This document shows, piece after piece, positions 13,966 through 62,193 of a DNA stretch of 64,000 bases. The position numbers and the translations under genes were made by a program. Each line of letters begins with the position of its first letter. The stretch's first letter is position 1. The notes below the pieces were generated by a model. It made no database searches. It was not told the origin of the DNA and saw only the letters and a program-made list of their open reading frames with translations. This DNA is from Actinomyces culturomici. Its GTDB lineage: Bacteria; Actinomycetota; Actinomycetes; Actinomycetales; Actinomycetaceae. The stretch spans positions 459,696 to 523,695 of the forward strand of contig NZ_LS991317.1 of NCBI RefSeq assembly GCF_900499005.1. Reading direction: 5' to 3'.

Positions 13966-13989
13966 GTCATCGTGAAGGGAGGCCGCCCC

Positions 13990-15228: not shown

Positions 15229-15251
15229 AAGGCGACGAGCTCTCATCTGAA

Positions 15252-15289
15252 GTCCCGCGCGAATCCGCCTAAGCGGATTCGCGCGGGAC
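15252..15289. terminator. Bidirectional terminator containing the lacI stop codon
   Basis: A perfect 17-bp stem (15252-15268 with 15273-15289) and a 4-base loop CTAA separate the convergent GH1-like and lacI genes. The TAG stop of lacI (15269-15271, minus strand) lies in the loop, so one arm encodes the repressor's last residues. Confidence 0.85.
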
Positions 15290-16276: not shown

Positions 16277-16375
16277 GCTTCTCCTTCGTGTGTGCGATGT
16301 CTGCAAGATTAGCCCATTCGAACTCTCGAATAAACGGCTTGGGGAGCTGAGTGCGGAGCGGTAATATTGATTCGC

Positions 16376-16387
16376 TACAACGTTGTA
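16376..16387. promoter_or_regulatory. LacI-family operator upstream of GH93 gene
   Basis: Perfect TACAACGTTGTA, extended to CTACAACGTTGTAG, centred about 32 bases before the GH93 start codon, where it could block promoter clearance. It is identical to the site at 12463-12474. Confidence 0.78.
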
Positions 16388-16413
16388 GTTCTGATGGATC
16401 CTCAGGAGGACCT

Positions 16414-31567: not shown

Positions 31568-31639
31568 GTCGTCGATCGGTGACATGTTGCTTGATGTCAA
31601 TGATCGACGACATGGAAGGGAGTGTCAACGATCGATGAC
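31568..31639. promoter_or_regulatory. Three phased 17-bp operator-like repeats
   Basis: Copies of TGTCAMYGATCGAYGAC occur at 31568-31584 (minus strand), 31595-31611 and 31623-31639 (plus strand). Each is a near palindrome TGTC..GATC..GAC. Starts are 27 and 28 bases apart. They fill the space between the divergent HTH and RhuM genes, the last copy overlapping the RhuM start. Confidence 0.7.
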
Positions 31640-32614
31640 GTCGATCTCGCTGGGGTCGCCGCTCACTCCGATTTGCCAGATCGGATGTTGTTTTTCACCC
31701 AAGCTGAAATTGCGGAGCTCTACGGAACCTCGATTCCCAACGTCGCTCAGATCATCCGACGTGTTCTTGAAGACGGAGAAGTGACCGAGGCAACTATTAA
31801 CTCAGAGTTAATGGTTCATCGAGAAGGCGATCGGGACGTCCGTCGGCAGCTCAAGGTCTACAACCTCGACATGATTCTCGCCGTCGGCTACCGCGTCACG
31901 AGTTCGCGAGCCACGCGGTTCCGTCAATGGGCGACGAGCGTGCTGCGCGAGTATCTCGTCAAGGGCTTCGCCATGGACGATGCGAAGCTCAAAGGCGCCG
32001 ATGGTTGGGACTACTTCGACGAGTGGTTGGAGCGGATCCGGGACATCCGCGCCTCGGAGAAGCGCTTCTACCAGAAAGTCCGCGATCTCTATGCGACGGC
32101 GATCGACTACGACCCGTCGAGCGATGCCGCGAAAGCCTTCTTCGCAAAGGTCCAGAACAAGATGCTCTGGGCCGTGACCGGGCACATCGCCGCGGAGATC
32201 ATCTCCCTGCGCTCCGACCCCGCGGTCACGAACATGGGCCTCACCTCGTGGAGCGGAACCGTCGTGCGCAAGCACGACGTTACGACCGCCAAGAACTACC
32301 TCCAGACGGCTGAGATCTCAGAGCTCGACCGCATCGTCACCATGTACCTGGACTATGCAGAGGACCAGGCGAAGCGCCGACAGACGATGACGATGCACGA
32401 TTGGGAGGAGCGCCTCGACGCCTTCCTCAGCTTCAACGAGCGCGAACTCCTCACTCACTCCGGCAAGGTGCGCGCGAAGGTCGCCAAGGCGCTCGCTGAA
32501 GAACGGTACGACGCATTCGATGCCGAACGACGACACCGGCAGGCGATCGCCGCCGACGAAGACGACAGCCGAATCCTCCGCGAGCTCGAACAGAAGATGG
32601 AGAACCGCGAATGA
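31622..32614 (+). CDS. RhuM-family protein
   Basis: A 330-residue protein of the virulence RhuM family. It has the N-terminal DNA-binding-like segment FFTQAEIAELYGTSIPNVAQ, then VYNLDMILAVGYRVTSSRATRFRQWAT, the BRO/KilA-like core seen in RhuM. Biochemical role is unknown, but such genes commonly lie in restriction and BREX islands. GTG 31622 is used; ATG 31685 is an alternative since no clear ribosome site supports the first. Its stop overlaps the pglZ start by four bases (ATGA), so the proteins are made together. Confidence 0.82.
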   Translation: MSTIDDVDLAGVAAHSDLPDRMLFFTQAEIAELYGTSIPNVAQIIRRVLEDGEVTEATINSELMVHREGDRDVRRQLKVYNLDMILAVGYRVTSSRATRFRQWATSVLREYLVKGFAMDDAKLKGADGWDYFDEWLERIRDIRASEKRFYQKVRDLYATAIDYDPSSDAAKAFFAKVQNKMLWAVTGHIAAEIISLRSDPAVTNMGLTSWSGTVVRKHDVTTAKNYLQTAEISELDRIVTMYLDYAEDQAKRRQTMTMHDWEERLDAFLSFNERELLTHSGKVRAKVAKALAEERYDAFDAERRHRQAIAADEDDSRILRELEQKMENRE

Positions 32615-35097: not shown

Positions 35098-35105
35098 GAG
35101 ACGCG

Positions 35106-37313
35106 ATGAGCACCCTCGACGACGCACTCGACACGATGAACGCCCCCGACCCGACACCGCAATCGGCCGAGACGCCCGTGAAGTCCGCCCTCGATGAGAA
35201 GATCAACGCGCAGTTCGCCGGCTCGGTCGTCCGAAAGGACCTCGTCAAGGCCGTCCGAGGCAACGCCGTTGTCCCCTCCTACGTCCTCGAATACCTCCTC
35301 GGTCAGTACGCCACCTCCGACGACGAATCGACGATTCGCGCGGGCATCGACTCCGTCCGGAAGATCCTCGCGACCCACTACGTCAACCGGAACGAGCACA
35401 TGCTCGCCAAGTCGGAGATCCGCCGGAAGGGCCGCCACCGCGTTATCGACAAGGTCACCGTCACCCTCAACGAGAAGAACGACGTTCACGAGGCCGAGTT
35501 CGAGAACCTCCAGATCAAAGGCGTCATCATCGACGACGCCACCGTCAAGAGGAACCCGAAGCTCCTCGTCGGCGGAGTCTGGTGCATCTGCGACATCGAG
35601 TACTTCCACTCAGAGGACGCGAAGGCCGTGCCGTGGATCCTCGCCTCCCTCAAGCCGATCCAGGTCGCCGGCGTCGACATCGACCAGTTCTACGAGGCGC
35701 GTTCGGCCTTCACCACCCCCGAATGGATCGACCTGCTCATGCAGTCGATCGGCCTCAACCCCGAGCAATTCACCGACCGCGGTAAGCTCATCGCCCTCAC
35801 GCGACTCATCCCCTTCGTCGAGCGGAACTACAACCTCGTCGAACTCGGGCCGAAGGGCACCGGAAAGTCCCACACCTTCAGCGAATTCTCCCCGAACGGC
35901 ATCCTCATCTCCGGCGGTGAGGTCACCGTCGCGAAGCTCTTCGTCAACAACGCGAGCGGCCGCATCGGCCTCGTCGGCTACTGGGACTGCGTCGCCTTCG
36001 ACGAGTTCGCCGCCAACAAGCGGACCGACCAGAACCTCGTCAACGTCATGAAGAACTACCTCGCCAACAAGTCCTTCTCCCGCGGCACGAGCATCTACGG
36101 CGCCGAGGCCTCCATGGCGTTCATCGGCAACACGACGCACACCGTTCCGTACATGCTGAAGAACTCCGACCTCTTCGACGAGCTCCCCAACTCCTACCGC
36201 GACCCCGCGTGGCTCGACCGCATCCACCACTACATCCCCGGCTGGGAGGTCGCGCCGATTCGCGCGGAGGTGTTCTCCTCCGGCTACGGATTCGTCGTCG
36301 ACTACCTCGCCGAGATCCTCCGCGCCAAGCGCGGCGACGACTACTCCGAGAAGTACGCCGACTACTTCACGCTCGACCCCTCGATCTCGACGCGCGACCA
36401 GGACGGGATCCGCAAGACCTTCTCCGGGCTCATGAAGCTCATCCACCCGACTGGGGTCGCCTCCGAGGAGGAGATCCGCCCCCTCCTCGAATACGCCATC
36501 GAAGGGCGCAAGCGCGTCAAGGACTCGATCCTCAGGATCGACGCGACGATGCGCGATACCCCCGTCCGATTCCGCTACGCCGACCGGGCGGGCGCGTGGC
36601 ACGAGGTCTCCTGTCTGGAGGAAACTCAGTACCCGCATCTGTACGGGCGCGACTGGTCCGTCGTCGAGGTGGACGGATACGATACCGCATCTGAAGTCGC
36701 CGCTCTCCAGGGCGGAGCTGCGCCCTCGGAAATCGGAACCGGGACGGCGGGGGAGGAGGCCGCGAGCGAAGCGCAGTCGAACGCGACGGCTGGGCCCGCG
36801 GCCGTCGAGGAAGCGGCTCTCGTCGAAGGGCATCGCGACTTCACCGCCGGGCAGAGGGGAGTCACGTACGAGGATCTCCTCCTGCCGTACCTACGCGGGG
36901 CGACGCGGATCAGGATCATCGACCCGTACATCCGACTCAGGCACCAGGGGCGCAACCTCGCCGACTTGCTCAGTCTGCTCGCCGAGGCGAAGGACGACGC
37001 CGACGAGATCGACGTCGAGCTCATCACCGTGCAGGAACCGAAGGACGAGTACAAGCGCACGCAGATCCAGATGCTGCGCGACATTCACGAGGCCGCGAGC
37101 GCCGTCGGCGTGCGCCTTGCAGTGCGCTTTGCGGATGCGATCCACGACCGGCGCATCGAGACGGATCGCGGTTGGCGCATCGATCTGGGCAAGGGACTCG
37201 ACATCTGGCAGAAGCCGAGCGACAACCCCTACGACTTCGCGCACCAGCATCAGAGGTTCCGGCTCGTCGGCTCGTCGTTCAGCGTGCACTACGTGCGAAT
37301 CGCGAAGGGCTGA
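35106..37313 (+). CDS. brxL: BREX AAA+ protein BrxL with C-terminal MITD1-like domain
   Basis: A 735-residue protein. The N-terminal BrxL domain is followed by the AAA+ core with Walker A GPKGTGKSHTF (residue 248) and Walker B CVAFDEFA (residue 294). The winged-helix-like region (IRKTFSGLMKLIHPTG) is present. After an Ala/Glu-rich linker, residues about 585-735 resemble the phospholipase-D-like C-terminal domain of MITD1: YEDLLLPYL, DPYIRLRHQGRN, IHDRRIETDRGWRI and GKGLDIW. An AGGAG site precedes ATG 35106. BrxL acts in BREX defence and is reported as a DNA-binding ring ATPase; the extra domain's task is unknown. Confidence 0.87.
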   Translation: MSTLDDALDTMNAPDPTPQSAETPVKSALDEKINAQFAGSVVRKDLVKAVRGNAVVPSYVLEYLLGQYATSDDESTIRAGIDSVRKILATHYVNRNEHMLAKSEIRRKGRHRVIDKVTVTLNEKNDVHEAEFENLQIKGVIIDDATVKRNPKLLVGGVWCICDIEYFHSEDAKAVPWILASLKPIQVAGVDIDQFYEARSAFTTPEWIDLLMQSIGLNPEQFTDRGKLIALTRLIPFVERNYNLVELGPKGTGKSHTFSEFSPNGILISGGEVTVAKLFVNNASGRIGLVGYWDCVAFDEFAANKRTDQNLVNVMKNYLANKSFSRGTSIYGAEASMAFIGNTTHTVPYMLKNSDLFDELPNSYRDPAWLDRIHHYIPGWEVAPIRAEVFSSGYGFVVDYLAEILRAKRGDDYSEKYADYFTLDPSISTRDQDGIRKTFSGLMKLIHPTGVASEEEIRPLLEYAIEGRKRVKDSILRIDATMRDTPVRFRYADRAGAWHEVSCLEETQYPHLYGRDWSVVEVDGYDTASEVAALQGGAAPSEIGTGTAGEEAASEAQSNATAGPAAVEEAALVEGHRDFTAGQRGVTYEDLLLPYLRGATRIRIIDPYIRLRHQGRNLADLLSLLAEAKDDADEIDVELITVQEPKDEYKRTQIQMLRDIHEAASAVGVRLAVRFADAIHDRRIETDRGWRIDLGKGLDIWQKPSDNPYDFAHQHQRFRLVGSSFSVHYVRIAKG

Positions 37314-47775: not shown

Positions 47776-47829
47776 CCGAGAGCATTACTTCTGCGCGTCG
47801 AAAGCATCACCTTCGCGCGTCGAGGGGAT
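47776..47829. repeat. Dispersed repeat, copy B
   Basis: Reverse complement of the repeat at 37315-37371 (about 80% identity by eye), located 21 bases after the VIT-family gene. Both copies follow the 3' end of a plus-strand gene but in opposite orientation. The rest of the gap to 47948 holds no recognised gene. Confidence 0.58.
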
Positions 47830-47948
47830 GCGGGAGGACCGTTCTTCTCCTGAAGGACGCGGCTCAAGGCGCATGATTCCGTGCCGGACGACGCGCCGCC
47901 TCGCGGCCGAGGGCGCACGACCTCGTGAAGAAGGCCAACGCCCAAGGC

Positions 47949-48458
47949 CTACAACCGGACGGGGTATGGCCTCGCCGAGGCCCCTCCTGCCCCCGTCCCG
48001 AAACGCCCGGCGAGCGCTGACCCGCACGTCGGGCACGCCCCCGACGAGGTGAGCCGGTAGTCGCTCACCTCGAACCAGTCGCGACGGATCAGCGCAGTGC
48101 CGCACGCGGTGCACCGCGTCGTCGACCCCGCGGGGTCGCGGACGTTGCCGGTGTAGACGTGGTGGAGTCCGACCTCGAGGGCGATCTCGCGCGCCCGTGT
48201 GAGCGTCGCCGCCGGGGTCGGCGGCGCGTCGAGCAGCCGGTGCGCGGGATGGAAGGCCGTGAGGTGGAGGGGGACGTCGGGGCCGAGCTCGCCGAGGATC
48301 CACTCGGCCTCCCCGCGCAGCATCTCCTCCGAATCGTTGTGCCCCGGGATGAGGAGGGTCGTGAGTTCCATCCACGTTCGCCCGCGCGCGCCGATCCGGC
48401 GGATCGTCTCGAGGACGTCGGCGAGCTCCGCGCCCGTCACCCGCCGATAGAAATCGGG
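47949..48458 (-). pseudogene. AmrS radical-SAM enzyme fragment (C-terminus)
   Basis: About 170 codons matching the C-terminal half of AmmeMemoRadiSam-system radical SAM enzymes: FYRRVTGAELADVLETI, LTTLLIPGHNDSEEM, HLTAFHPAH, VYTGNVRDP and a CxxC pair (CTAC, CPTC). The N-terminal half with the CxxxCxxC cluster site is absent; ISL3 sequence begins at 48459. The partner genes (memo, ammecr1) are not in the window. Confidence 0.82.
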
Positions 48459-48906
48459 TGCTCCTGACTCTTCCGTGGGTCATGGTCGGCCGGGGAGGGT
48501 GGGGCGGTGGCCGCCGAGGGTGAGCATGGCCAGGGCTATGAGGGCTTGTGGGGACCGGAACCCGAACGCGACGCGGGTGATGAGTCGGATCTTGGTGTTG
48601 ACGGACTTGATACGTCCGTTGGAGAGGCCGTGCTCGATCGCGGCGAGGATCCGGTCGTGGTGTTTCACGATCGAGCGTTGGAGTTTCACGAAGGCGGGGA
48701 TACGACATCGCCTGGCCCAGGAGATCCACCGGTCCAGTGCGTCGATGGCTTGCTCGTAGGGCAGCTTGAACACGACGTAGTCCTTCTTTGAGGAGGTAGG
48801 CGCGGTGCAACCGAGGGTCGGTCTGCGCGATCCAGGCGAGCTTCGCGGTCTGTCTCTCGGTGAGATCCTCGGGGTTCTTCCACAGCGCGTAGCGTGAGTT
48901 CTTCAA
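48459..48906 (-). mobile_element. ISL3-family element fragment, copy 1
   Basis: One end and the 3' part of the transposase gene remain, joined to amrS on the left and to the ClC gene on the right. About 315 bases match 63462-63780 with only a few differences. Confidence 0.8.
48480..48906 (-). pseudogene. ISL3 transposase C-terminal fragment, frameshifted
   Basis: Begins KNSRYALWKNPEDLTERQ and ends at IALAMLTLGGHRPTLPGRP, typical of the DDE_Tnp_ISL3 C-terminus (WARRCRIPAFVKL; GLSNGRIKSVN). Two bases are missing near 48776 compared with the copy at 63.7 kb, shifting the frame between LLKEGLR and VFKLPYEQ. The N-terminal part is absent. Confidence 0.85.
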
Positions 48907-50362: not shown

Positions 50363-51199
50363 TCAGCACTCGTCGTAGAGGCGGAGGAGGCGAGCGACCT
50401 CGGCGCGGACCGCGTCCGTGCCCGGGCCGATGTACCGGCGGGGATCGACCAGCCCGGGCTCCGTCGCCAGCGTCTGCCGGACGGAGCGCGTGAAGACGAC
50501 GTTGAGATGGGTGGAGACATTGATCTTCGTCATTCCCGCCCGGATCGCCGCCCTCATGCCGTCGTCGGGGACGCCCGAGGAGCCGTGGAGGACCAGGGGG
50601 ACGGGGACGGCCGAGCGGATCCGCGCGATGAGGTCCGTGTCGAGCACGGCGTCGCGGGTGGCCATCGCGTGGGAGGACCCCACCGCCACCGCCAGCAGGT
50701 CGACGCCGGTGTCGGCGACGAACCGCGCGGCGTCCTCGGGCGAGGTGCGCGCCGACGGGTCGTGGACGCCGTTCTTGCCTCCGACCTCGCCCAGCTCGGC
50801 CTCCACGGAGACGCCCGCCTCATGGGCGAGGCGCGTGATCGCCGCGGTCGTCGCGCGGTTGCGCTCGTCGGGGAGCTTCGACCCGTCGTACATGATCGAC
50901 GTGAACCCCAGGTCGATGGCCTCGCGGCACAGGTCGGCGTCCTCGGCGTGGTCCAGGTGGACGCCGACGGGCACGGAGCAGGCGTCGGCCAACTCGAGCA
51001 GCGCGCGGCCCAGCGGGCGCAGGCGCCCGCCGTGGTAGGCCACCGCGTTCTGCGACAGCTGGAGGACGACGGGCAGGCCCACGTCCTGGGCGGCGTCGGC
51101 GAATGCCTCTCCGTGGTCGAGGAGGACCACGTTGAAGGCGCCCAGTCCGCGCCCCCTCCGGGCGCATTCGCGGGCCAGTCGGGCCGTGTCAGCGAGCAT
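50363..51199 (-). CDS. Class II aldolase, tagatose-1,6-bisphosphate type
   Basis: A 278-residue zinc aldolase of the GatY/KbaY/FbaA family. Catalytic Asp and zinc His lie in GVHLDHAED; other ligands occur in AEVGEVGG-like EAELGEVGGKNG, AVGSSHAM and LHGSSGVPD. Splits tagatose- or fructose-1,6-bisphosphate into DHAP and glyceraldehyde-3-phosphate. Tagatose is favoured because the gene overlaps a LacC-like kinase by 11 bases and follows an AgaS-like gene. Last step of the proposed galactosamine pathway. Confidence 0.87.
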   Translation of the reverse strand: MLADTARLARECARRGRGLGAFNVVLLDHGEAFADAAQDVGLPVVLQLSQNAVAYHGGRLRPLGRALLELADACSVPVGVHLDHAEDADLCREAIDLGFTSIMYDGSKLPDERNRATTAAITRLAHEAGVSVEAELGEVGGKNGVHDPSARTSPEDAARFVADTGVDLLAVAVGSSHAMATRDAVLDTDLIARIRSAVPVPLVLHGSSGVPDDGMRAAIRAGMTKINVSTHLNVVFTRSVRQTLATEPGLVDPRRYIGPGTDAVRAEVARLLRLYDEC

Positions 51200-52202
51200 G
51201 GGACATCCTTTCGATGACGATCTGGGGGAGGAGGGCCGCGCGGACGGCCGGGTCGATCTCTCCGGCGACGGGGCGGACGACGGCGGCTGCGGAGGTGGCG
51301 ACCGCGTCGCGCAGCGCGTCCTCCCAGTCGAGGGCGTCCCACGCCCTGTGGGCGTCGGCCCTGACGAGGGCGTCCCCCGTCTCGGGAGCGCCGGACTCCC
51401 CGTCGGCGGACGTGGATGCGCCGGCCAGGTGCCGGGCGAGCGCGGCGACCGCCGCGTCGCCCGCGCCCGTCGGGTTGCCCTCGAGCGCTCGGGGCAGCCG
51501 GGCGCGCAGCACGCCGCCCAGCGTGTGCCTCTCCATGCCGCGCGCTCCGAGGGACACGACGACGCAGCGGGTCCCGCGCGCCAGGAGCGCGCGGGCGCCC
51601 TCGTCGATGGTCCGGGCCCCCATCGGGGCGGTCGCGGAGAGGAGCTCCTCCTCGTTGGGTTTGACCACGTCGGCGTGGGCGGCGGCGACGAGCAGGAGCG
51701 GCCCGGAGGTGTCCGCCAGGGTGCGGGCGCCGGCCTCGCGCGCGGCGGCCAGGAGGACGCTCAGGCTCTCGGCGTCCGTGCCCGGAGGCAGGGAGCCGCT
51801 GAGCGCCACGACATCGCCGGGGCGCGCGCAGTCGGCCACCAGCCGGGTGAGGTCCGCCCAGGCGCTCGCGGGAACGGGGGCGCCCGCCTCGTTGAAGACG
51901 GTAGCGTCGCCGTCGATGATCGCCACGGACCGGCGGGTCTCCCCGGGCGCCTCGATCCAAGTCGAGCGGATCCGGGGGGAGGCCTGGGCGAGCAGATCCC
52001 GGACACGCGCTCCCGTCCCCCCGCCCAGGAAGCCCGCAGCGGAGACGGGCACGCCCATCTGGTCGAGGACCCGCGCCACGTTGAGCCCCTTGCCGCCGGG
52101 GCGTTCGGCGACGTCGGCCACCCGGTGGGAACGGCCCCGCTGCCAGGCGGGCACGCGCCAGGTGAGGTCGAGTGCCGGATTCGGGGTGATGGTCCAGATC
52201 AT
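51189..52202 (-). CDS. Tagatose-6-phosphate/1-phosphofructokinase-like kinase
   Basis: A 337-residue PfkB kinase of the LacC/FruK group. It opens with TITPNPALDLTW (typical for this group) and has GGKGLNVARVLDQMG and the catalytic GNPTGAGDAAVAALA. Likely phosphorylates tagatose-6-phosphate to the bisphosphate used by the adjacent aldolase. Its start follows the AgaS-like gene by about 97 bases in which only a weak GC-rich inverted repeat is seen. Confidence 0.85.
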   Translation of the reverse strand: MIWTITPNPALDLTWRVPAWQRGRSHRVADVAERPGGKGLNVARVLDQMGVPVSAAGFLGGGTGARVRDLLAQASPRIRSTWIEAPGETRRSVAIIDGDATVFNEAGAPVPASAWADLTRLVADCARPGDVVALSGSLPPGTDAESLSVLLAAAREAGARTLADTSGPLLLVAAAHADVVKPNEEELLSATAPMGARTIDEGARALLARGTRCVVVSLGARGMERHTLGGVLRARLPRALEGNPTGAGDAAVAALARHLAGASTSADGESGAPETGDALVRADAHRAWDALDWEDALRDAVATSAAAVVRPVAGEIDPAVRAALLPQIVIERMSHAR

Positions 52203-52299
52203 GGGGGCTCCTGGAACGAGGGCGGCAGGGCGCGCCCGACTGGAGGCCCGCGGTGGCGGACCTCCGGATCGGCGGGGTGGGGGAGTGCGGGACGGCGAC

Positions 52300-53172
52300 T
52301 CAGCCGAGGATCACGGACCGGGTGAGATGCCGAGGGGCGTCGGGATCCAGGCCGCGAGCCTCGGCCCGCGCGACGGCCATGCGTTGAGCCAGGACGAGGT
52401 GGGCGAGGGGATCGCCCAGGGTCGGGACCAGCTCGGCGCCGAACGCCGCGACCTTCTCCGCGACGCCGTCGGGGGCCTCGCCGAAGATCCAGACCAGGCG
52501 CCCCGGCTGGGCGATCGCCATCGGGCCGTGCCGCCATTCCATGGCCGGATAGGCCTCGGTCCAGGACTGCGAGGCCTCGCGCAGTTTGAGGGCGGCCTCG
52601 TTGGCCAGGCCGATGGTCCATCCCGTGCCGAGGAACGTGATCTGGTCCGCCTCGATCCATGACGCGGGGATCTCGCGGGTCAGCGCGGCCTCCGCCTCGC
52701 GGGCGGCGGCCTCGACGTCGTGCCCGAGCGAGGACAGCATCCACGCCAGGGCGGTGGTGGCGAACCGGGTCTGGACGACCGACGCCTCATCGGCGAAGTC
52801 GAGGACGACCTCGGCGTCGACGAACGGCGTGGCGGGGCCGTCGCCGACGGCGGTGATCAGCAGGGCGGGCGTTCCGGCGCTGCGGAGCGCCCGCGCGAGG
52901 TCCACGATCTCGGTCGTCGTGCCCGAGCGGGACAGGAGGACGACCCTGTCGTAACGGCGGTCCGCCGGGAACTCGGTGGCCGTGAAGGCGTCGGTGGTCC
53001 CCAGCCCGGCGCGCTCGCGCGCGGCGGCGTAGGACTGGGCCATGAACCACGAGGTTCCGCATCCGACGACCGCCGCCGGCTCGCCGACAGCGGGCAGCCC
53101 CGTGGTCGGCAGGGCGGCGGCTCGACGCCAGGTCGCCGGCTGGCTGAAGATCTCGTCGAGGGTGGCAGACAT
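52300..53172 (-). CDS. SIS-domain sugar isomerase/deaminase, AgaS-like
   Basis: A 290-residue protein with two SIS domains. Sugar-phosphate motifs are VVGCGTSWF, VVLLSRSGTTTEIVD and the C-terminal YPAMEWRHGPMAI. Similar to AgaS, which converts galactosamine-6-phosphate to tagatose-6-phosphate and ammonia, and to GlmS isomerase domains. Context with LacC-like kinase and aldolase supports the AgaS role. Confidence 0.82.
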   Translation of the reverse strand: MSATLDEIFSQPATWRRAAALPTTGLPAVGEPAAVVGCGTSWFMAQSYAAARERAGLGTTDAFTATEFPADRRYDRVVLLSRSGTTTEIVDLARALRSAGTPALLITAVGDGPATPFVDAEVVLDFADEASVVQTRFATTALAWMLSSLGHDVEAAAREAEAALTREIPASWIEADQITFLGTGWTIGLANEAALKLREASQSWTEAYPAMEWRHGPMAIAQPGRLVWIFGEAPDGVAEKVAAFGAELVPTLGDPLAHLVLAQRMAVARAEARGLDPDAPRHLTRSVILG

Positions 53173-53220
53173 GGCAGAGGTCCTTCTGTTGGGTGGATCG
53201 GTGGATGGGGGCGGCGGCGG

Positions 53221-54336
53221 TCAGCGGGGATCCGCCAGACCGAGGACGCGGCGGGCGTTGCCCGCGTAGAGTCCGGGAAGAAGCGCGGGATCGAGGTCGG
53301 CGCCGGAGATCGCCCACCGGCCCTGCGGAGGGATCTCGTCGTCGGGCGAGTACTCGAAGGACTCGTCCGCCGTCTCGAGGAAGCGGAAGTAGGTCTCCAG
53401 CGAGCGGTGGTCCACGGGATAGGCGTCGGTGCCGAACAGGACGCGGTCGGGATGGTCGCGGACGAGCCGGCTGAATCGTCGGGGCTGCCGTCCCAGTTCG
53501 GCCAGCCGGCCGGCGATGTCGACGACGAGGTTCGGGGCGGCGGCCAGGAGCCGGTCGACGCGGTCGAGGTCCTCGGCGGCGCAGCCGACGTGCGCGCCGA
53601 TGACCCGCGTGCCGGGAATGGCGGCGAGCAGGGCCTCGAAGGCGTCCAGCAGGCGGTCGAAGGACGGATAGCGGGTCCGGTCGGCCCGCGACCACTCGGG
53701 CACCGAGGCGAGTTCGTCGAAGCGCTCGTTGCGCGCGTCGATCGGGTCGAAGAAGGCCTTGGGATCGGCGATGTGGACGAGGACGGGGAGGCCGAGCTCT
53801 CCGGCGAGCGTGAGGATCTCGACCACCGCCGGATCGTCGGGCATCACGAGCGTCCCGGCGCCGTCCACAACCTCGAGGCCGAGGTTCTTCCAGACCTTGA
53901 GGCCCCGGGCGCCGCGGTCGGCGGACTCGTGCAGTTGCGAGGAGAGGGTCCGCAGGCCGTCCGGCTCGGACAGCAGGTCCCAGTCGGCCTGGCAGAAGGT
54001 GAGGAAACGCCCCGGGTGCGCCAGATCGTATCGCTCCAGGTTCGCCGTGAGCTCCGCGCCCCACAGGCCGTCCAGATTGACCATGGTCTGGACGTTCGTC
54101 TGGTCCATGAGGTCGAGGAGCGCCCCGACGTCCGGCGCGCACCAATCCGGCGTGAGCCAGCGTCCGAGGTGGTTGTGGACGTCGATCGCGGGAACGCTCG
54201 CCTGCGCCACCGGAGAGCGGGAGGCCACCAGCTGGGATCGGGGGGTCCATTCGACGAGCCTGAGATCCGGCGTCTCCGGGGCGGCGGCGGGCATGGAGCG
54301 CCCCTCATGGCCGGGAGGCGTGGAAGCGACGGACAT
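53221..54336 (-). CDS. Amidohydrolase-2 family metal-dependent hydrolase
   Basis: A 371-residue TIM-barrel hydrolase. Metal ligands: HNH in AIDVHNHLG, His in LVHIADP, His in VIGAHVGC and Asp in VLFGTDAYP. Not of the NagA/AgaA deacetylase family, but a deacylase or lactonase role in the pathway is possible. ATG 54336 follows AGGAG by 6 bases; the open frame extends further upstream without a ribosome site. First gene of the leftward operon, reading away from the binding-protein gene. Confidence 0.78.
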   Translation of the reverse strand: MSVASTPPGHEGRSMPAAAPETPDLRLVEWTPRSQLVASRSPVAQASVPAIDVHNHLGRWLTPDWCAPDVGALLDLMDQTNVQTMVNLDGLWGAELTANLERYDLAHPGRFLTFCQADWDLLSEPDGLRTLSSQLHESADRGARGLKVWKNLGLEVVDGAGTLVMPDDPAVVEILTLAGELGLPVLVHIADPKAFFDPIDARNERFDELASVPEWSRADRTRYPSFDRLLDAFEALLAAIPGTRVIGAHVGCAAEDLDRVDRLLAAAPNLVVDIAGRLAELGRQPRRFSRLVRDHPDRVLFGTDAYPVDHRSLETYFRFLETADESFEYSPDDEIPPQGRWAISGADLDPALLPGLYAGNARRVLGLADPR

Positions 54337-54451
54337 CGAGACTCCTGACAGGACAGCGTGGGTGTGAGGCGGCCGGCGAGGCTCGTCCGGGAGCTGCTCG
54401 CACCGCCAAGCATGACAAGCTCTGACCCGTCCGTTCATCAAATAGATCAAA

Positions 54452-54471
54452 TCGCTCAACAAAACGAGCGA
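54452..54471. promoter_or_regulatory. Putative DeoR-regulator operator, site 1
   Basis: TCGCTC-N8-GAGCGA in the 295-base divergent region between the amidohydrolase and binding-protein operons. The same half-sites occur at 59886-59906. Nothing else in this region was recognised apart from AT-rich promoter-like sequence around 54430-54450. Confidence 0.62.
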
Positions 54472-54631
54472 TATGACCAGATTGGATGACGGCGACGTTG
54501 AGCGCCGTCACACTATGAGGGGAAGCGGGCCTCCTCGCCCCACATCACGGCCTGGTTGCGCCGGGCAGAGACGGGCTGCGGCCGGCCGGGACAGGCGAAG
54601 AATTGATGGTCCAATCAAAGGGGAGATCGTC

Positions 54632-55960
54632 ATGAACCACAGCACACGACCAGGACGCCGGTGGGCCTCCTCCATGGTCACTGCCGCCGCCCTGCTCGCG
54701 GGGACCGTGGGGCTGTCGGCCTGCTCCTCGCAGGACCAGGGCTCCGCCGCGCTGGATCCCGACGCCGACGTCACGTTGACGTGGTGGACCGGGCAGAACG
54801 ACCAGGCGGAGACGATCCTCGAGGGACTCGCCGAGGAGTTCCACCAGGACCACCCCAACGTCACCATCAAGGTCTCCTCGGGCGCGTCCTCGACCGAGGA
54901 CCTGCTCCAGAAGCTCTCCTCCTCGTTCGTCGGGGGAACCTACCCGGACATCTCCTATGCGTTCGGATCCTGGGCCAGCGAGCTGGCGGGGTCCGGGCGG
55001 ACGCTGGACATCTCCGACAAGGTCTCCAACCCGGCCGTCGGATGGGACCAGTTCTCCCAGGCCGCCACCGCCACCGCCCAGCCCACCGGCGAGGCGGTCA
55101 TCGGGTTCCCCTCGGTCGTCGACAACATCTCCTTGATCTACAACAAGACGGTCTTCGATCGGGCCGGTGTCGCCTACCCCACCGACGACTGGACCTGGGA
55201 CGACTTCAGGACGGCGGCGCAGGAGCTCACGGACCCCTCCACGACGACCTACGGCTACGCCTACTCGGTCTCGGGCTCCGAGGAGACGACGTGGCAGTTC
55301 TGGCCGCACCTGTGGCAGAACGGCGGGCAGATCCTGGACGAGGCCGGCACGACGGCCACGTTCGACTCCCCGGTCGGCGTCCAGGCTCTGACCTTCCTGC
55401 GGGACATGGCCGTCGAGGACCAGTCCGTGTACCTGGACCAGACCGACACGAAGTTCGGCCAGATCTTCGCCAGCGATCAGATCGGCATGATGACGTCCGG
55501 GCCGTGGATGCTCTACGACCTGCAGAAGGCGGGAACGAGTTACGGCGTCACCCAGCTGCCCGGAACGGACGGCCGCCACACCACCATCTCCGGCGCCGAC
55601 CTGTGGGTCCTCTTCGACCACCAGGACGCCAATCGCTCCCACTGGGCCTACGAGTTCACGAAGTGGCTGACCGACCCGGCCCAGGACGTCCGATGGAACG
55701 TCGCCTATGGCAACCTCCCGCTGCGCGAATCGGAGATCGACTCGCCCGAGTTCCAGGAGCAGGTCGCCGCCATGCCGGGCCTGGACGTCATGGCGAAGAA
55801 CAGCCAGAACGCGACGATCCCGCGTCCGACGGTCCCCGGGTACGTCAGGCTCTCGGAGGCGGTCGGAACGGCGATCTCGGAGGTCCTTCAGGGCCAGGGC
55901 GATCCCACGGAGAAGCTCCATGAGGCCGCGACGGAATCGACGGAGGCGTTGTCCCAGTGA
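54632..55960 (+). CDS. Extracellular sugar-binding lipoprotein
   Basis: A 442-residue ABC solute-binding protein. The signal peptide ends at the lipobox VGLSACSS. The mature part has LTWWTGQNDQAETILEGL and the central IYNKTVFDRAGV. An AAAGGGGAG site precedes ATG 54632; the longer open frame starts in the promoter. Its stop overlaps the first permease gene (GTGA). Substrate inferred as oligosaccharides released by the GH114 lipoprotein. Confidence 0.9.
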   Translation: MNHSTRPGRRWASSMVTAAALLAGTVGLSACSSQDQGSAALDPDADVTLTWWTGQNDQAETILEGLAEEFHQDHPNVTIKVSSGASSTEDLLQKLSSSFVGGTYPDISYAFGSWASELAGSGRTLDISDKVSNPAVGWDQFSQAATATAQPTGEAVIGFPSVVDNISLIYNKTVFDRAGVAYPTDDWTWDDFRTAAQELTDPSTTTYGYAYSVSGSEETTWQFWPHLWQNGGQILDEAGTTATFDSPVGVQALTFLRDMAVEDQSVYLDQTDTKFGQIFASDQIGMMTSGPWMLYDLQKAGTSYGVTQLPGTDGRHTTISGADLWVLFDHQDANRSHWAYEFTKWLTDPAQDVRWNVAYGNLPLRESEIDSPEFQEQVAAMPGLDVMAKNSQNATIPRPTVPGYVRLSEAVGTAISEVLQGQGDPTEKLHEAATESTEALSQ

Positions 55961-56877
55961 CCATCGCACAGCCGAAAGCGCCGAGCGATCGCGCGCTGAG
56001 CCGGCGCCATCTCGGCGAGACGCTGGCGGGCTGGGGGTTCACGGCCCCGGCCACGCTCATCGTCCTGGGGCTGTCCATCTTCCCCGCGATCTGGGCCCTC
56101 GTGCTCTCGTTCCAGAAGTGGAACGGGTTCTCCCAGGCCGAGGGCGTGGGGGTCGCGAACTACCAGGGGATGCTCACCGATGCGGAACTGAGGTCCGCCG
56201 TCGGCCACACCCTGGTGTACACGGCCCTCTTCGTCCCGGCGTCGGTCCTGCTGGGCCTGGTCCTCGCGGTGGCGCTCAACCGGAAGATCCGCTTCATCGG
56301 GATCTACCGGACGCTGATCTTCGTGCCCTTCGTCGTGTCGGCCTCGGCGACGGGCATCCTGACGACCTATCTGTTCAATCCGCAGTACGGGCTGGTCAAC
56401 AACGTCCTGAGAGCGGTCGGCCTGCCGCCGCAGGGCTGGCTGGAGAACCCGCATCAGGCGATGCTCGTCATCGCGATTATGTCGCTGTGGGGCCAGGCCG
56501 CCTTCACGACGGTCATCTACCTGGCCGCGCTCCAGGACATCCCGGCCGAGCTCACCGAGGCGGCGCGCGTGGACGGCGCCACGAAGTGGCAGGCCTTCTG
56601 GCACGTCACGTTCCCGCAGTTGGCGCCCATCACGGTGTTCGTCGCCATCTGGCAGACGATCGGGGCGATCCAGTTGTTCGACGTCGTCTACACGACGACG
56701 CGCGGCGGGCCCCTGAAGTCCACCCAGACCGTCGTCTACTACCTGTGGAAGAAGGCGTTCACCGAACTCGACTTCGGCTACGCCTCGGCGGTCGCCTACG
56801 GGCTGTTCTTCGTGACGCTGGCGCTGACCGTCGCGGTCGCGGTGTATTCCCGGAAGAAGGATGTGGGCGGGCTGTGA
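55957..56877 (+). CDS. ABC sugar permease, MalF type
   Basis: A 306-residue permease; EAA loop TEAARVDGATKWQAFWHVTFP. Starts at GTG 55957 overlapping the upstream stop, and its own stop overlaps the next start (GTGA), so translation is tightly coupled. No ATPase gene nearby. Confidence 0.88.
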   Translation: MTIAQPKAPSDRALSRRHLGETLAGWGFTAPATLIVLGLSIFPAIWALVLSFQKWNGFSQAEGVGVANYQGMLTDAELRSAVGHTLVYTALFVPASVLLGLVLAVALNRKIRFIGIYRTLIFVPFVVSASATGILTTYLFNPQYGLVNNVLRAVGLPPQGWLENPHQAMLVIAIMSLWGQAAFTTVIYLAALQDIPAELTEAARVDGATKWQAFWHVTFPQLAPITVFVAIWQTIGAIQLFDVVYTTTRGGPLKSTQTVVYYLWKKAFTELDFGYASAVAYGLFFVTLALTVAVAVYSRKKDVGGL

Positions 56878-57821
56878 CGATCACCAGGGAGGCTCCCTCA
56901 ATGGATGCCGGCAATCAGACGGCCCCCGCCGTGGACGTGCTCCGCGCCACCGGGGCGGACGGCCCGCGAGACGCCCGCCCCGGTGGCGCGGCCCCGCGGA
57001 GGAGGCGCCGCAGCACGGAGTGGCGCTGGCACCTGGTGCTGGCCCCCACGGCGCTGGTCTTCTCGATCCCGTTCGTCGACATGTTCCTGACGTCGCTGAC
57101 ACCGGAGTCGGAGCTCAACCGCTTCCCCCGCAGCTTCATCCCCTCGTCCTTCACGTTCGCCGGATACGAGAAGCTCTTCGGGACCACCGACATCCTGCAC
57201 TGGCTGGGCAACTCGTTGATCGTGTCCACGACCTCGGTGATCTCGCAGGTCGTGCTGTGCTCCCTGGCCGGCTACGGGTTCGCGCGCCTGAAGTTCCCGG
57301 GCCGCACGCTGGGGTTCCTGGGGATCATGGGAACGATCATGATCCCCACCCAGCTGCTGATGGTCCCGATGTACGTGATGTACGCGCGGGTGGGCCTGGT
57401 CGACACGCTCGGCGCGGCGATCGTGCCCTGGCTGGCGTCGTCGTTCGGGATCTTCCTCATGAGGCAGTTCTTCCTCTCGATCCCCCAGGAGATGGAGGAG
57501 GCCGCCCGGCTCGACGGCTGTTCGCGCCTGCGGACCTTCTGGCACGTGATCCTTCCTCTGGCGCGGCCCGCGCTGGCGACGCTGGCGATCTTCGCGCTGC
57601 TCGATTCGTGGAACGATCTGGTGTGGCCGCTCATCGCGATCAACGACGACTCCTGGTACACGATCCAGTTGGGGATCGCCAACTTCCAGGGAGGGCGCCG
57701 GACGGATTGGGCGCTCCTGATGTGCGCGAACGTGGTCGCCACGTTGCCGCTCATGCTGTTCTTCACCGTGGCGCAGAAACAGTTCCTGGCCACCATGACG
57801 TCCTCGGGAGTGAAGGGATGA
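56874..57821 (+). CDS. ABC sugar permease, MalG type
   Basis: A 315-residue permease with a basic, Pro/Arg-rich cytoplasmic N-terminus of about 45 residues before helix 1. EAA loop MEEAARLDGCSRLRTFWHVIL. GTG 56874 is used; ATG 56901 is an alternative. The stop overlaps the kinase start (ATGA). Confidence 0.87.
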   Translation: MTITREAPSMDAGNQTAPAVDVLRATGADGPRDARPGGAAPRRRRRSTEWRWHLVLAPTALVFSIPFVDMFLTSLTPESELNRFPRSFIPSSFTFAGYEKLFGTTDILHWLGNSLIVSTTSVISQVVLCSLAGYGFARLKFPGRTLGFLGIMGTIMIPTQLLMVPMYVMYARVGLVDTLGAAIVPWLASSFGIFLMRQFFLSIPQEMEEAARLDGCSRLRTFWHVILPLARPALATLAIFALLDSWNDLVWPLIAINDDSWYTIQLGIANFQGGRRTDWALLMCANVVATLPLMLFFTVAQKQFLATMTSSGVKG

Positions 57822-58798
57822 GGAGGGAGGTGCCGGGGATGGGGAGCGCCGAGGCGCGCCCGGTCGTCGTCGTCGGCGATGCGAATCCGGACCTCGTGGT
57901 CCGCGGGGACGTCGTCCCGCGCTTCGGCCAGGCGGAGGTGCTCGCCGACTCGGCGGATCTCGCGGTGGGAGGGTCGGCCGCGATCGTGGCGATGGGCCTG
58001 GCGCGGCTGGGCGTGCCGACCTCGTTGATCTCACGGGTCGGCGCGGATGTCTTCGGCGGCCTGGTGAGCGACGGGCTCCGGGAGCGCGGCGTCGATCTCA
58101 GGCACCTCGGCGTGGATCCCGACGTGCCGACGGGCCTGTCCGTCGTCTTGTCGAGGCTGGAGGACCGCGCCATCCTGACGGTGCCCGGGACGATCCCCCT
58201 GCTCGACCCGGCGGACGTGGAGCGCGCGCTGGAGGCGCTTCCCGAGCCGGGGCACCTGCACGTCGCCTCCTTCTTCCTGCAGCCGGCGCTGGCGAGGGGT
58301 CTTCCGCAGATTCTCGCCCGCGCGCGCGAAAAGGGGTGGACGACCAGCCTGGACACGAACTGGGACCCGTCGGAGCAGTGGGAGGGCGTCGACGCCGTGC
58401 TGGGAGGTGTCGATGTCCTGTTGCCCAACCGGAACGAGCTGCGGGCGATCGGCGGCGCGCTCGGGGGCCCCTCCCCGCGGGACGACGCCGGCATGGCGGC
58501 GTGGATCGCGGCGTTCGGCCCGACGGTGGTGGTCAAGGACGGCGCCGAGGGCGCCTGGTCCGTCGGCCCGGACGGCGTGACGGTCCGCGTGGCCGCGTTC
58601 GATGTCGAAGTGGTCGACACGACGGGGGCCGGGGACAGCTTCGACGCGGGCTATCTGGCGGCCTGCGCCCATGGGGTCCTCGATGAGCGCACGCGGCTGC
58701 GGTGGGCGGTGGGAGCCGGATCGCTGTCCACGCGCGGGACGGGCGGCAGCGATCGCCAGGCGACGCAGGAGGAACTCCTCCGGCTCCTGGCGGGCTGA
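57818..58798 (+). CDS. PfkB-family sugar kinase
   Basis: A 326-residue ribokinase-like enzyme. Motifs: VVGDANPDLVVRGD, GGSAAIVAMGLARLG and the catalytic VVDTTGAGDSFDAGYLAA. Coupled to the transporter operon, so it probably phosphorylates the imported sugar after hydrolysis; a galactosamine- or GalNAc-6-kinase role (AgaK-like) would complete the pathway. This is inference. Confidence 0.83.
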   Translation: MRREVPGMGSAEARPVVVVGDANPDLVVRGDVVPRFGQAEVLADSADLAVGGSAAIVAMGLARLGVPTSLISRVGADVFGGLVSDGLRERGVDLRHLGVDPDVPTGLSVVLSRLEDRAILTVPGTIPLLDPADVERALEALPEPGHLHVASFFLQPALARGLPQILARAREKGWTTSLDTNWDPSEQWEGVDAVLGGVDVLLPNRNELRAIGGALGGPSPRDDAGMAAWIAAFGPTVVVKDGAEGAWSVGPDGVTVRVAAFDVEVVDTTGAGDSFDAGYLAACAHGVLDERTRLRWAVGAGSLSTRGTGGSDRQATQEELLRLLAG

Positions 58799-58920
58799 CC
58801 CGACCGGTGAGGCCGGTGCCGGTTCCGGCCCGTCTCTCACCAGGCACCCGATCGGGCTTCGTGCCGACCAGGGTCGGCGGCCCTCACCCGTGCCGACGGA
58901 GCCGTTCCGCAGTCGGGATC

Positions 58921-58977
58921 GACGAGGGCGACGCCCCTGCGCGGACCCCTCGTCCCGTGAGCGGGATCGCCCTCGTC
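58921..58977. terminator. Long-armed hairpin between convergent kinase and deoR genes
   Basis: Arms GACGAGGGCGA (58921-58931) and TCGCCCTCGTC (58967-58977) with a further inner pairing. A close relative with the same arm sequence lies at 62317-62372, so these are recurring intergenic hairpins. Confidence 0.6.
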
Positions 58978-59017
58978 AATGGGCTGCGGTCGCGGGACCT
59001 GGCGGCACGGCGCCGGA

Positions 59018-59830
59018 TCACGCCCGGGCGAACTGGACGTCGACGCCGGCCGCCTGGATCGCGGCGATCTCGGCCGGATCGGCGGACTCGTCCGTCACCA
59101 GCACGTCGACCTCGTCTAGATCGGCCACCTTCGCCAGCGTGGCGCGCCCGACCTTCGATCCGTCGGCCACGACGACGACGCGTTCCGCGCGGGCCACCAT
59201 GGCGTGGTTCGTTCGGGCCTCGGTCTCGTCGTAGGTGGTGGCCCCGCCGCGCACGCTGATCCCGTCGGTGCCCAGGAAGGCCGTTCCGAAGTTGATGTTG
59301 TTGAAGGTCGCCTCCGAGATCGCTCCGACGGCCTCCAGGGAGCTGGACCGGACGGCTCCGCCCGTCATGATGACCGTGACGGTGCCATGGGTGGCCAGCT
59401 CGGTGGCCGTGGTCAGCGAGTTGGTGACGATGGCCAGCCCCGGCCGTTGGGCGAGCGCCCGGGCGACGGCGGCGGCGGTGGTGCCTCCGCCGATGGCCAC
59501 CGAGTAGCGTCCGTCGGGGATGAGCCGTGCGGCGTGCTGGGCGATGCGCATCTTCTCGTCATGGAACTGGGCGTCGCGCAGAAGGACGGAGACCTCGTTC
59601 ATGTAGTCCAGGGCGCAGGCCCCTCCGTGCGTGCGCACGATGAGGCCGCGGTCCTCGAGGGCCGTGAGGTCGCGTCGCACGGTGGCGGGGGAGACTCCCA
59701 GATCGCGGACCAGTGCGGCGAGGTGCACCTCGCCGCGGGTGTTGACGGCGTCGAGCAACCGGGACATCCGGTCGGTGCGTTTGGCGGAACCGGTGCGGGT
59801 CTGATCGACTGCTGTCTGCGACGATGTCAT
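59018..59830 (-). CDS. DeoR-family regulator (AgaR/LacR-like)
   Basis: A 270-residue regulator. The N-terminal winged HTH reads LAALVRDLGVSPATVRRDLTALEDRG, with the conserved IVRTHGGA after it. The sugar-phosphate-binding DeoRC domain follows, with VAIGGGTTAAAVARAL and VVADGSKVGR. ATG 59830 gives the standard distance to the HTH; the longer frame is antisense to the GH4 gene. It diverges from the GH4-GH114 operon, with a palindrome between, and probably represses both halves of the locus. Confidence 0.87.
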   Translation of the reverse strand: MTSSQTAVDQTRTGSAKRTDRMSRLLDAVNTRGEVHLAALVRDLGVSPATVRRDLTALEDRGLIVRTHGGACALDYMNEVSVLLRDAQFHDEKMRIAQHAARLIPDGRYSVAIGGGTTAAAVARALAQRPGLAIVTNSLTTATELATHGTVTVIMTGGAVRSSSLEAVGAISEATFNNINFGTAFLGTDGISVRGGATTYDETEARTNHAMVARAERVVVVADGSKVGRATLAKVADLDEVDVLVTDESADPAEIAAIQAAGVDVQFARA

Positions 59831-59885
59831 CGAGGTCCTCCGGAAGGCCGCCACCCCGACGGCCCGGCGCCGGGGAGCGCATTGG

Positions 59886-59906
59886 TCGCTCACCAAAGGT
59901 GAGCGA
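59886..59906. promoter_or_regulatory. Putative DeoR-regulator operator, site 2
   Basis: A palindrome with 9-bp arms TCGCTCACC and GGTGAGCGA around AAA, between the divergent deoR and GH4 starts. It shares TCGCTC/GAGCGA with the site at 54452-54471. Confidence 0.7.
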
Positions 59907-59965
59907 TTCGTGAAGAATACGAGCATAGTCTTGCACACATCGATCATCGTGTCCATGATGAGGGC

Positions 59966-61282
59966 ATGGTCACCATTGCATTCATCGGCGCGGGAAGCGT
60001 CGTCTTCACCCGCGAGCTCGCCACCGACATCCTGCGCTACCCGGAGCTGTCCGATGTGCGCTTCGCCCTGTACGACATCGATCCCGAGCGGCTGTCGGTC
60101 GCGGCTCGGACCGTCGAGCAGGTGAGCAGGCAGCTCGGCGCCGCGGCCCAGGTGGTGGCCACGCTGGACCGCCGCGAGGCGCTCGCGGGAGCGGACTTCG
60201 TCGTCGACATGATCCAGGTCGGAGGCATCGACGCCACCCTGAAGGACCTGGAGATCCCGGCCCGATTCGGTCTGCGCCAGACGATCGGCGACACGACCGG
60301 CGTGGGCGGGGTCTTCCGCGCCCTGCGCACGTTCCCGGTGCTGACCGACATCGCGCGCGACATGATGGAGATCTGCCCGGACGCCTGGTTCCTCAACTAC
60401 ACGAATCCCATGGCGATGAACGTGTGGTGGACGTCCGTGGTCGCCCCGGAGCTCAAGACCGTCGGCCTGTGCCACAGCGTGTACTGGACCGCCCACGATC
60501 TGGGCGAGCTGATCGGCGTCCCCGTCGAGGAGACCACCTATCGCGCGGCCGGCGTCAACCATCAGGCCTGGCTTCTGGAATGGAAGCGGAACGGCGAGAG
60601 CCTCTACCCGCTGCTGCGGGACAGGATCCGCGAGGACCCCGGGATGGAGCGCCGCGTGCGCGTCGAGATCTTCCGCCGCATCGGCTACTACCCGACGGAG
60701 ACCAGCGAGCACTCCTCGGAGTACCTGCCGTGGTTCCTCCGCTCCGATGAGCAGATCGAGCGCTATCGCCTGACCCCGCTGGAGTACGCGCAGATCAGCC
60801 GCGACAATGTGGCGGAGTTCGAGCAGACCGAGCGGATCCTTGACGCGGGCGGCGACCTGGAGCTCGACGACAGCGCCAGCGAGTACGCCCCCCAGATCAT
60901 CCACTCCCTGGTCACGGGGGCCGAGCGCGAGATCCACGTCAACGTCCCCAACAGGGGCCTCATCGACAACCTGCCCCAGGGCGCCGTCGTCGAGGTCCCC
61001 GCCCGCGTCGACGCGCATGGGGTCCATCCGATCGCGATGGGGTGCCTGCCGGTGCAGTGCGCCGCCCTCAACCAGCCGTATCTGTCGGTCAACCGGCTCA
61101 CAGTGGAGGCGGCGCGCACCGGGAACCCGCAGTTGATCAGGCAGGCCGTCCTGATGGACGCCAACGCGAATTCGACGCTGACGCCCCGCCAGATCTGGCA
61201 GCTGTGCAACGAGATGGTCGCCGCCCACGGCGATCTGCTCCCCGCGCCCCTGCGGGCCCAGATCTCGCCGGACAGGCTCTGA
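59966..61282 (+). CDS. GH4 glycosidase, alpha-galactosidase-like
   Basis: A 438-residue NAD- and metal-dependent glycosidase. The Rossmann start VTIAFIGAGSVVFTREL, the catalytic region FLNYTNPMAMNVW, the metal Cys in VGLCHSVYW and the His in GVNHQAWLL are all present, as in MelA-type enzymes. GH4 enzymes cleave by a redox mechanism and act on alpha-linked galacto-sugars, some with amino groups. Here it probably hydrolyses imported oligosaccharides. It has no signal peptide and is followed by the GH114 gene after 23 bases. Confidence 0.9.
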   Translation: MVTIAFIGAGSVVFTRELATDILRYPELSDVRFALYDIDPERLSVAARTVEQVSRQLGAAAQVVATLDRREALAGADFVVDMIQVGGIDATLKDLEIPARFGLRQTIGDTTGVGGVFRALRTFPVLTDIARDMMEICPDAWFLNYTNPMAMNVWWTSVVAPELKTVGLCHSVYWTAHDLGELIGVPVEETTYRAAGVNHQAWLLEWKRNGESLYPLLRDRIREDPGMERRVRVEIFRRIGYYPTETSEHSSEYLPWFLRSDEQIERYRLTPLEYAQISRDNVAEFEQTERILDAGGDLELDDSASEYAPQIIHSLVTGAEREIHVNVPNRGLIDNLPQGAVVEVPARVDAHGVHPIAMGCLPVQCAALNQPYLSVNRLTVEAARTGNPQLIRQAVLMDANANSTLTPRQIWQLCNEMVAAHGDLLPAPLRAQISPDRL

Positions 61283-61305
61283 CGGACACCCCGAGGAGGA
61301 GCGGC

Positions 61306-62193
61306 ATGGTGAGCGCACCGACATCGCGGTTCGCGGGTCTGTCCGCGGCCGCGCTCCTCCTCGGGGTCCTCGCGGCCGCATCCCTGTCCGCCTGCGGGCA
61401 GCAGCGGAGCGCCGTACCGCCGACGTCCGGGGCGACGCCCGACCTGCCGCCGGTCTCCGGCGTCTTCGACTACCAGCTGGGAGGCGCGTCCGATGCCGTC
61501 GACGTCGACGGAGAGCCGGTGCGCCCCGACGTCGTGGTCCGCGATTCGACGGCGCCTCCCCTGGAGGGCGCGTACAGCATCTGCTACCTGAACGGCTTCC
61601 AGACGCAGCCGGACGCGGCGGAGCACTGGCGGACCGAGCATCCTGACTTGCTCCTGCGGGATGAGGGCGCCACACCGGCCGCCGACCCGGACTGGCCCGA
61701 CGAATTCGTCTTGGATCCCACGACCCCCCGGCAGCGCGAGGGCATCTTGGCCGTCGTCGGCCCGTGGATCGACGCCTGCGCGTCCGCGGGATTCCAGGCC
61801 GTCGAGTTCGACAATCTGGACAGCTGGACCAGATTCGACGGGGTGGACCGCGCGGGGGCCCTCGAGCTGGCGCAGGCGTATGTGGACCGGGCGCACCGGG
61901 TGGGCCTGGCCGCGGCCCAGAAGAACACGGCGGAACTGGGCACCGACGGGCGCGACCTCATCGGGTTCGATTTCGCGATCGCGGAGTCCTGCGCGGTCTG
62001 GGGCGAGTGCGGCGGCTACGGCGACGTGTACGGCGATCACGTCCTCGACATCGAGTATCCGGAGGAGCTCGCCGATGCGGGAATGACGTTCGCAGACGTC
62101 TGCGCGTCGAGCGACCGGGCTCCGCTGACCCTCCTGCGCGACCGGGATCTGGTTCCGCCGGGCGCGGAGGGCCACGTCTTCGACTGGTGCTGA
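61306..62193 (+). CDS. GH114 endo-alpha-1,4-polygalactosaminidase-like lipoprotein
   Basis: A 295-residue surface lipoprotein. The signal ends in the lipobox SLSAC. The barrel contains ICYLNGFQTQPDAAEHWR, GFQAVEFDNLDSW (probable catalytic acid region), AAAQKNTAE and FDFAIAESCAVWGECGGY, which together are the GH114 signature. GH114 enzymes such as fungal Ega3 cut alpha-1,4-linked galactosamine polymers (galactosaminogalactan, Pel). GAGGAGGA precedes ATG 61306. It would act outside the cell to feed the ABC importer. Substrate is predicted from the family. Confidence 0.85.
   Translation: MVSAPTSRFAGLSAAALLLGVLAAASLSACGQQRSAVPPTSGATPDLPPVSGVFDYQLGGASDAVDVDGEPVRPDVVVRDSTAPPLEGAYSICYLNGFQTQPDAAEHWRTEHPDLLLRDEGATPAADPDWPDEFVLDPTTPRQREGILAVVGPWIDACASAGFQAVEFDNLDSWTRFDGVDRAGALELAQAYVDRAHRVGLAAAQKNTAELGTDGRDLIGFDFAIAESCAVWGECGGYGDVYGDHVLDIEYPEELADAGMTFADVCASSDRAPLTLLRDRDLVPPGAEGHVFDWC

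Follow-up and report, generated by a model that had tools for sequence, protein, structure and literature searches.

How might a bacterium feed on galactosamine polymers? Biofilms of Pseudomonas (Pel) and Aspergillus contain them in their matrix, and cutting enzymes for them are sought. A locus in Actinomyces culturomici, an actinobacterium with a 2.56-Mb genome, raises this question: at positions 50363–62193 of the 64,000-nucleotide stretch that we analysed (the window; assembly GCF_900499005.1, contig NZ_LS991317.1, positions 459,696 to 523,695), a gene for a predicted GH114 endo-α-1,4-galactosaminidase stands with genes for a GH4 glycosidase, sugar ABC importer proteins, sugar kinases, a SIS-domain protein, an aldolase and a DeoR-family repressor. 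The best reading of this locus, and in our judgement a probable one, is a regulon for the utilisation of galactosamine polymers; the sequence cannot choose between a Pel-type and a fungal polymer as its target. A sequence-only reading of the same DNA had proposed this use, and profile searches against Pfam and NCBIfam placed every gene family it had named where it had put it. Recurrence of the gene set with GH114, two palindromes, the fold and active site of the GH114 protein, and the AgaS-like and AgaZ proteins that related loci encode speak for the proposal, whereas its complete importer, its AgaS identity for the SIS protein and its pathway role for an amidohydrolase found no support.

Results

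The GH114 gene (61306–62193, plus strand) is separated from the end of the GH4 gene by a 23-base gap, and its product scores 148 bits against PF03537 (Pfam cut-off 27). A single-sequence search of the PDB gave one weak GH114 match (E = 0.088); a sequence profile reached the characterised enzymes Ega3 (E = 1.7e-18) and the F. solani GH114 (E = 5.9e-15), apart from these, the only row with E no higher than 1 was an alpha-amylase (E = 0.037). Identity to the solved enzymes is about 20%. The protein has a modified TIM barrel like that of Ega3, and the catalytic pair, D169 (the Asp nucleophile) and E227 (the Glu acid/base) in the alignment to Ega3, is invariant in 38 sequences; fold and catalytic residues together suggest a candidate endo-galactosaminidase. 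Among solved enzymes its nearest relative is Ega3, which acts specifically on deacetylated regions (PMC7229062). By the account in PMC12054363, only one bacterial GH114 protein has been partly characterised, and folded production of others failed.

The PF03537 model also picks up a GH191 enzyme (PMC12054363), and the low Pfam score of our protein and its like (148–150 bits, against up to 304 elsewhere) raised the suspicion of GH191 rather than GH114; profile and fold are nearest Ega3, which makes closest kinship to TmGH191/Env-GH191 the less likely reading. The sequence-only reading had put the protein at the cell surface; a lipobox-like LSAC motif in the translation speaks for this placement and may make it a lipoprotein.

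Searching for the same gene set in other genomes, a check that had been suggested for this locus, found it recurring with GH114 in other genera. In a survey of 394 genomes of the class, the window's included, PF03537 occurred in 131, and a GH4 protein matching the window's at 480 bits or more in 21. Ten of the 20 other GH4 genomes also hold GH114, within 10 kb in seven of the ten, against 0.03 expected; the seven are genomes counted singly, same-genus ones among them, and come to four when counted by genus. In G083, G153 and G394 the two genes are on separate contigs or far apart. GH4 and an importer also accompany GH114 in five of the best 80 named GH114 loci (Lentzea fradiae, L. cavernae, L. 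albidocapillata, L. waywayandensis and Kineosporia mesophila).

On a GH114 tree of 60 rows, the 13 genes linked to such loci need six changes, at least five of them forced by well-supported branches (shuffled labels need 11.9 on average), and they lie on two sides of the tree that are set deeply apart, four on one and nine on the other. A single origin of the linked genes does not fit these at least five changes, which points to GH114 having been joined to this kind of locus repeatedly, gains and losses being indistinguishable on the tree. Separately, a GH114 gene of the window's class lies at 10001–10747 of L228, a record assembled from a metagenome and labelled Inquilinus limosus (Pseudomonadota), as sister to that of Kineosporia, by transfer or on a misplaced contig.

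To describe the setting of GH4 we scored 26 GH4 loci: the window, 12 that have GH114 and 13 whose stretch as read lacks it. Stretches ran to at most about 20 kb, beyond which further genes may exist, and a gene counted as present from a tblastn score of 50 bits upward, as the gene caller had missed or mis-framed some genes. SIS occurs in 17 loci, an AgaS-like protein in five and neither in four; 15 loci have the window-type PfkB kinase, five a BadF-family protein and six neither. BadF and AgaS-like proteins co-occur in 5/5 loci and never with SIS or PfkB; judged by gene content, such an exchange of SIS/PfkB for AgaS/BadF is what two enzyme pairs serving a single amino sugar would be expected to show. 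The AgaZ/GatZ protein of L138 is over its model's cut-off and has an 85% identical relative in L139. L138 (5605–17035) and L139 each carry GH4 with AgaS-like, AgaZ/KbaZ and BadF-type proteins, with an EamA transporter in L138 and no GH114 in the stretch, and look like compact galactosamine loci.

The GH4 protein itself (59966–61282, plus strand; PF02056 and PF11975) scores 563 bits on NF011657, over the NCBIfam cut-off of 486. This model names GH4 α-galactosidases, which we take to be of the MelA type, and so counts in favour of a neutral α-galactoside locus in which GH4 would be an ordinary α-galactosidase, uptake would be raffinose-like and GH114 would be an independent neighbour. The 13 GH4 loci without GH114 argue the same way, since they imply that GH4 can serve another substrate. 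We nonetheless judge this explanation unlikely: SIS or AgaS-like amino-sugar proteins accompany GH4 in 22 of the 26 loci, the Leloir route is the normal path for galactose, GH114 begins 23 bases past GH4, and the linkage of the two is the one that needs at least five changes on the tree.

If galactosamine is indeed the sugar released, is the polymer acetylated? A GalNAc-rich polymer or O-glycans could be deacetylated by an enzyme encoded elsewhere or by the locus's own Amidohydro_2 family hydrolase (53221–54336, minus strand; PF04909, 59 bits; start ATG at 54336 or 54294). A NagA-like gene does lie elsewhere in the genome (194 bits, cut-off 226), the hydrolase gene adjoins SIS also in L108, L136 and L137 (where its relatives are 55% identical and similarly placed), and SIS–ROK loci of the genus are likewise without a nearby NagA. 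Yet the hydrolase is found in just 4/26 GH4 loci and is outside the known deacetylase family, being of Amidohydro_2 and not Amidohydro_1/NagA type; it had no PDB match at E up to 0.01, two relatives outside GH4 loci (L147 and L148) adjoin unlike genes, and the pathway role it had been given is not supported. In L147 (4243–10871) the neighbours are polysaccharide-type genes (Wzy_C, a DegT aminotransferase and a hexapeptide transferase). NagA is absent from all 26 GH4 loci and present in 5/12 comparison SIS loci, hand-picked from a set of matches of which 20 stretches were retrieved. Given also the specificity of Ega3 noted above, we regard an acetylated substrate as distinctly unlikely. ROK kinases show the same pattern (0/26 against 8/12). 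Eight further SIS loci, seven of them from the window's genus, had ROK in 8/8 and NagA in 0/8, so the NagA contrast weakens to 0/26 against 5/20, and loci other than those with GH4 can lack NagA too; the kinase contrast holds (0/26 against 16/20). Presence or absence of AgaA separates users of GalNAc from users of GalN in the systems treated in PMC5583593.

The intracellular enzymes are less specific. The SIS protein (52300–53172, minus strand; PF01380) had been called AgaS-like; it reaches 27 bits against the AgaS model TIGR02815 (cut-off 529) and 75 bits against that for GlmD (cut-off 580), and its PDB matches are glucosamine-6-phosphate deaminases and synthases, which leaves an amino-sugar-phosphate SIS protein, a candidate deaminase/isomerase. 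The LacC-like kinase (51189–52202, minus strand; PF00294) was upheld as LacC/1-PFK-type by the hexose kinase model TIGR03168 (237 bits, cut-off 216), and reaches 115 bits on the lacC model, under its cut-off of 410. For the class II ketose-bisphosphate aldolase of tagatose- or fructose-bisphosphate type (50363–51199, minus strand; PF01116, 273 bits), the best NCBIfam models, FBA (234 bits) and GatY (211 bits), are close and both under cut-off. With a SIS protein nearest the GlmD-type deaminases and FBA as the aldolase's best model, a glucosamine locus might be proposed, with fructose phosphates as the substrates of kinase and aldolase; we hold it to be the least probable explanation and very unlikely, as five loci pair the same GH4 with AgaS-like proteins, L138 and L139 have AgaZ/KbaZ as well, and GH4 and GH114 are both galacto-type families.

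The ABC importer had been described as complete. A lipoprotein-like solute-binding protein (54632–55960; PF01547/PF13416) and two permeases (55957–56877 and 56874–57821; both PF00528) are encoded on the plus strand, and an ATPase gene was not found in the locus. Elsewhere in the genome (C17:59893-61014) lies a gene for a MalK-like ATPase 58% identical to the MalK of a related locus, a candidate partner that may drive the importer. The permease genes are followed by that for the PfkB-family sugar kinase, a proposed galactosamine kinase (57818–58798, start at 57818 or 57839, plus strand; PF00294, 149 bits).

The regulator (59018–59830, minus strand; PF00455 and PF08220) is of the DeoR family, as had been noted, and AgaR-like; against the AgaR model it reaches 186 bits (cut-off 260), and against a GlpR-type model 189 (cut-off 300). 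Operator-like palindromes lie between the divergent genes (TCGCTCAACAAAACGAGCGA, 54452–54471, in the gap 54337–54631) and between deoR and GH4 (TCGCTCACCAAAGGTGAGCGA, 59886–59906, in the gap 59831–59965), and have in common TCGCTCA, a CAAA core and GAGCGA. Sites fitting the pattern TCGCTCAN6-9GAGCGA number two in the window, where 0.02 would be expected, and three in the whole genome; read backwards, the pattern has none there. As it was chosen after both sites had been seen, the probability is optimistic, and its genome-wide rarity is unaffected. A scan for sigma-70 promoters returned no sites and is uninformative at this G+C.

Where did the locus come from? Relatives of SIS at 64–72% identity occur in 7/23 other members of the genus; all seven also have a ROK kinase and an aldolase (69–79% identity), and five of them LacC. 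GH4 occurs in 0/23 at E up to 1e-60. A native origin of the whole locus does not fit this pattern, and the locus looks composite because SIS has relatives in the genus while GH4 has none at that threshold. GH114 does not look native either: among 34 other members there was one weak match (G015, E = 2.8e-9), of the other GH114 class. It looks like a genus-native amino-sugar core to which importer, kinase, GH4 and GH114 were joined by acquisition, as we infer from these distributions. Near the locus, a partial match to an ISL3-type transposase (47785–48906, minus strand; 34 bits, frame residues 1–48) is a possible acquisition trace.

Elsewhere in the window are BREX-type defence genes (31622–37313, plus strand) for PglZ (893 bits) and BrxL (996 bits), preceded by a PDC-S05 gene (432 bits), and, at 9099–18615, genes for a protein with an arabinofuranosidase C-terminal domain, sugar ABC importer proteins (by tblastn) and a large ricin-type lectin protein with a sub-threshold BNR match, possibly a further glycan locus.

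Discussion

From the gene families and their arrangement we infer the following substrates and order of steps. The polymer would be α-1,4-linked and rich in deacetylated galactosamine, and the lipoprotein GH114 would cut it outside the cell. Oligomers would enter through the solute-binding protein, the two permeases and an ATPase encoded elsewhere; in the cytoplasm the NAD-dependent GH4 enzyme would trim α-linked galactosamine, perhaps galactose, from them. The PfkB kinase would convert galactosamine to galactosamine-6-phosphate, the SIS protein would deaminate and isomerise this to tagatose-6-phosphate, the LacC-type kinase would yield tagatose-1,6-bisphosphate, and the class II aldolase would split it to triose phosphates, with the DeoR repressor acting via both palindromes at divergent promoters. 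That GH4 is an NAD-dependent exo-α-1,4-galactosaminidase and PfkB a galactosamine 6-kinase, completing with GH114 a polymer-to-triose pathway for deacetylated α-1,4-galactosamine exopolysaccharide, assembled several times by actinobacteria grazing on Pel-like or fungal galactosaminogalactan matrix, is a tentative proposal to which we give slightly less than even chances. Exo-α-1,4-galactosaminidase would, to our knowledge, be a new activity for GH4.

Besides the name of the GH4 model, the 13 loci without GH114, the NagA-like gene and the weakened NagA contrast, several observations weigh against galactosamine-polymer utilisation. The link to GH4 is seen in 8/131 GH114-bearing genomes, the window's included, and 75 of the best 80 named GH114 loci are without GH4 and importer in the stretch (some contigs being short), from which it follows that GH114 usually works elsewhere. 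The models for SIS, kinase and aldolase alone do not tell galacto from gluco forms, and the AgaS-like proteins of L134, L138 and L186 score 437–489 bits on TIGR02815, under its cut-off. The proposed scheme gives the amidohydrolase no role. A comparison locus cut at a contig end (L058) carries PfkB, with a piece of GH4 at the cut end. A looser palindrome (TCGCT, 9–13 bases, AGCGA) was not near the regulator in 25 related loci, whose regulators are 36–55% identical to the window's; its three matches (two in L133, one in L137) are all kilobases away.

Should galactosamine-polymer utilisation be the true function, the locus illustrates a way in which bacteria may consume these polymers, offers candidate genes for two so far unassigned activities, α-galactosaminidase and galactosamine kinase, and provides a gene signature for tracing galactosamine turnover in soil and biofilms.

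Comparison with known systems

Among the papers listed by full-text searches covering few subscription journals, none describes such a catabolic locus in its title or abstract opening. The GH4 protein resembles the α-galactosidases of NF011657 in passing the family model and in carrying both GH4 Pfam domains, and differs from them in adjoining amino-sugar genes; its α-galactosaminidase action is a proposal from that context. With Ega3 and the F. solani GH114 (PMC12054363) the window protein has in common the fold, the Asp/Glu pair and the profile match, and it differs in being lipoprotein-like, actinobacterial, about 20% identical and encoded in a cluster for catabolism, not synthesis.

GH114 genes in Gram-positive clusters are also found in synthesis operons, accompanied by Agd3-type deacetylase genes (PMC7229062), which lends something to the idea that the polymer is self-made, trimmed by GH114 as in those operons and recycled by the catabolic genes. 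We think this very improbable: by contrast with those operons, the locus shows catabolic genes and no polymer synthesis genes were seen; no synthase or deacetylase family occurs among the locus genes, Agd3 itself not having been searched for, and the genome has no PelG match.

Closest to the proposed galactosamine pathway are the aga pathways for GalN and GalNAc of E. coli and Streptococcus (PMC4694137, PMC5583593). The sequence-only reading had known of no Gram-positive galactosamine pathway of this layout; streptococcal ones are already described (PMC4694137). Common to the aga systems and to the scheme proposed here are phosphorylation of GalN, deamination/isomerisation, a tagatose-6-phosphate kinase, a class II aldolase and a DeoR-type repressor. 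The window locus differs in having ABC importer parts and PfkB in place of a PTS, a SIS protein outside the AgaS family and no deacetylase in the locus, and in the adjoining genes for GH114 and GH4.
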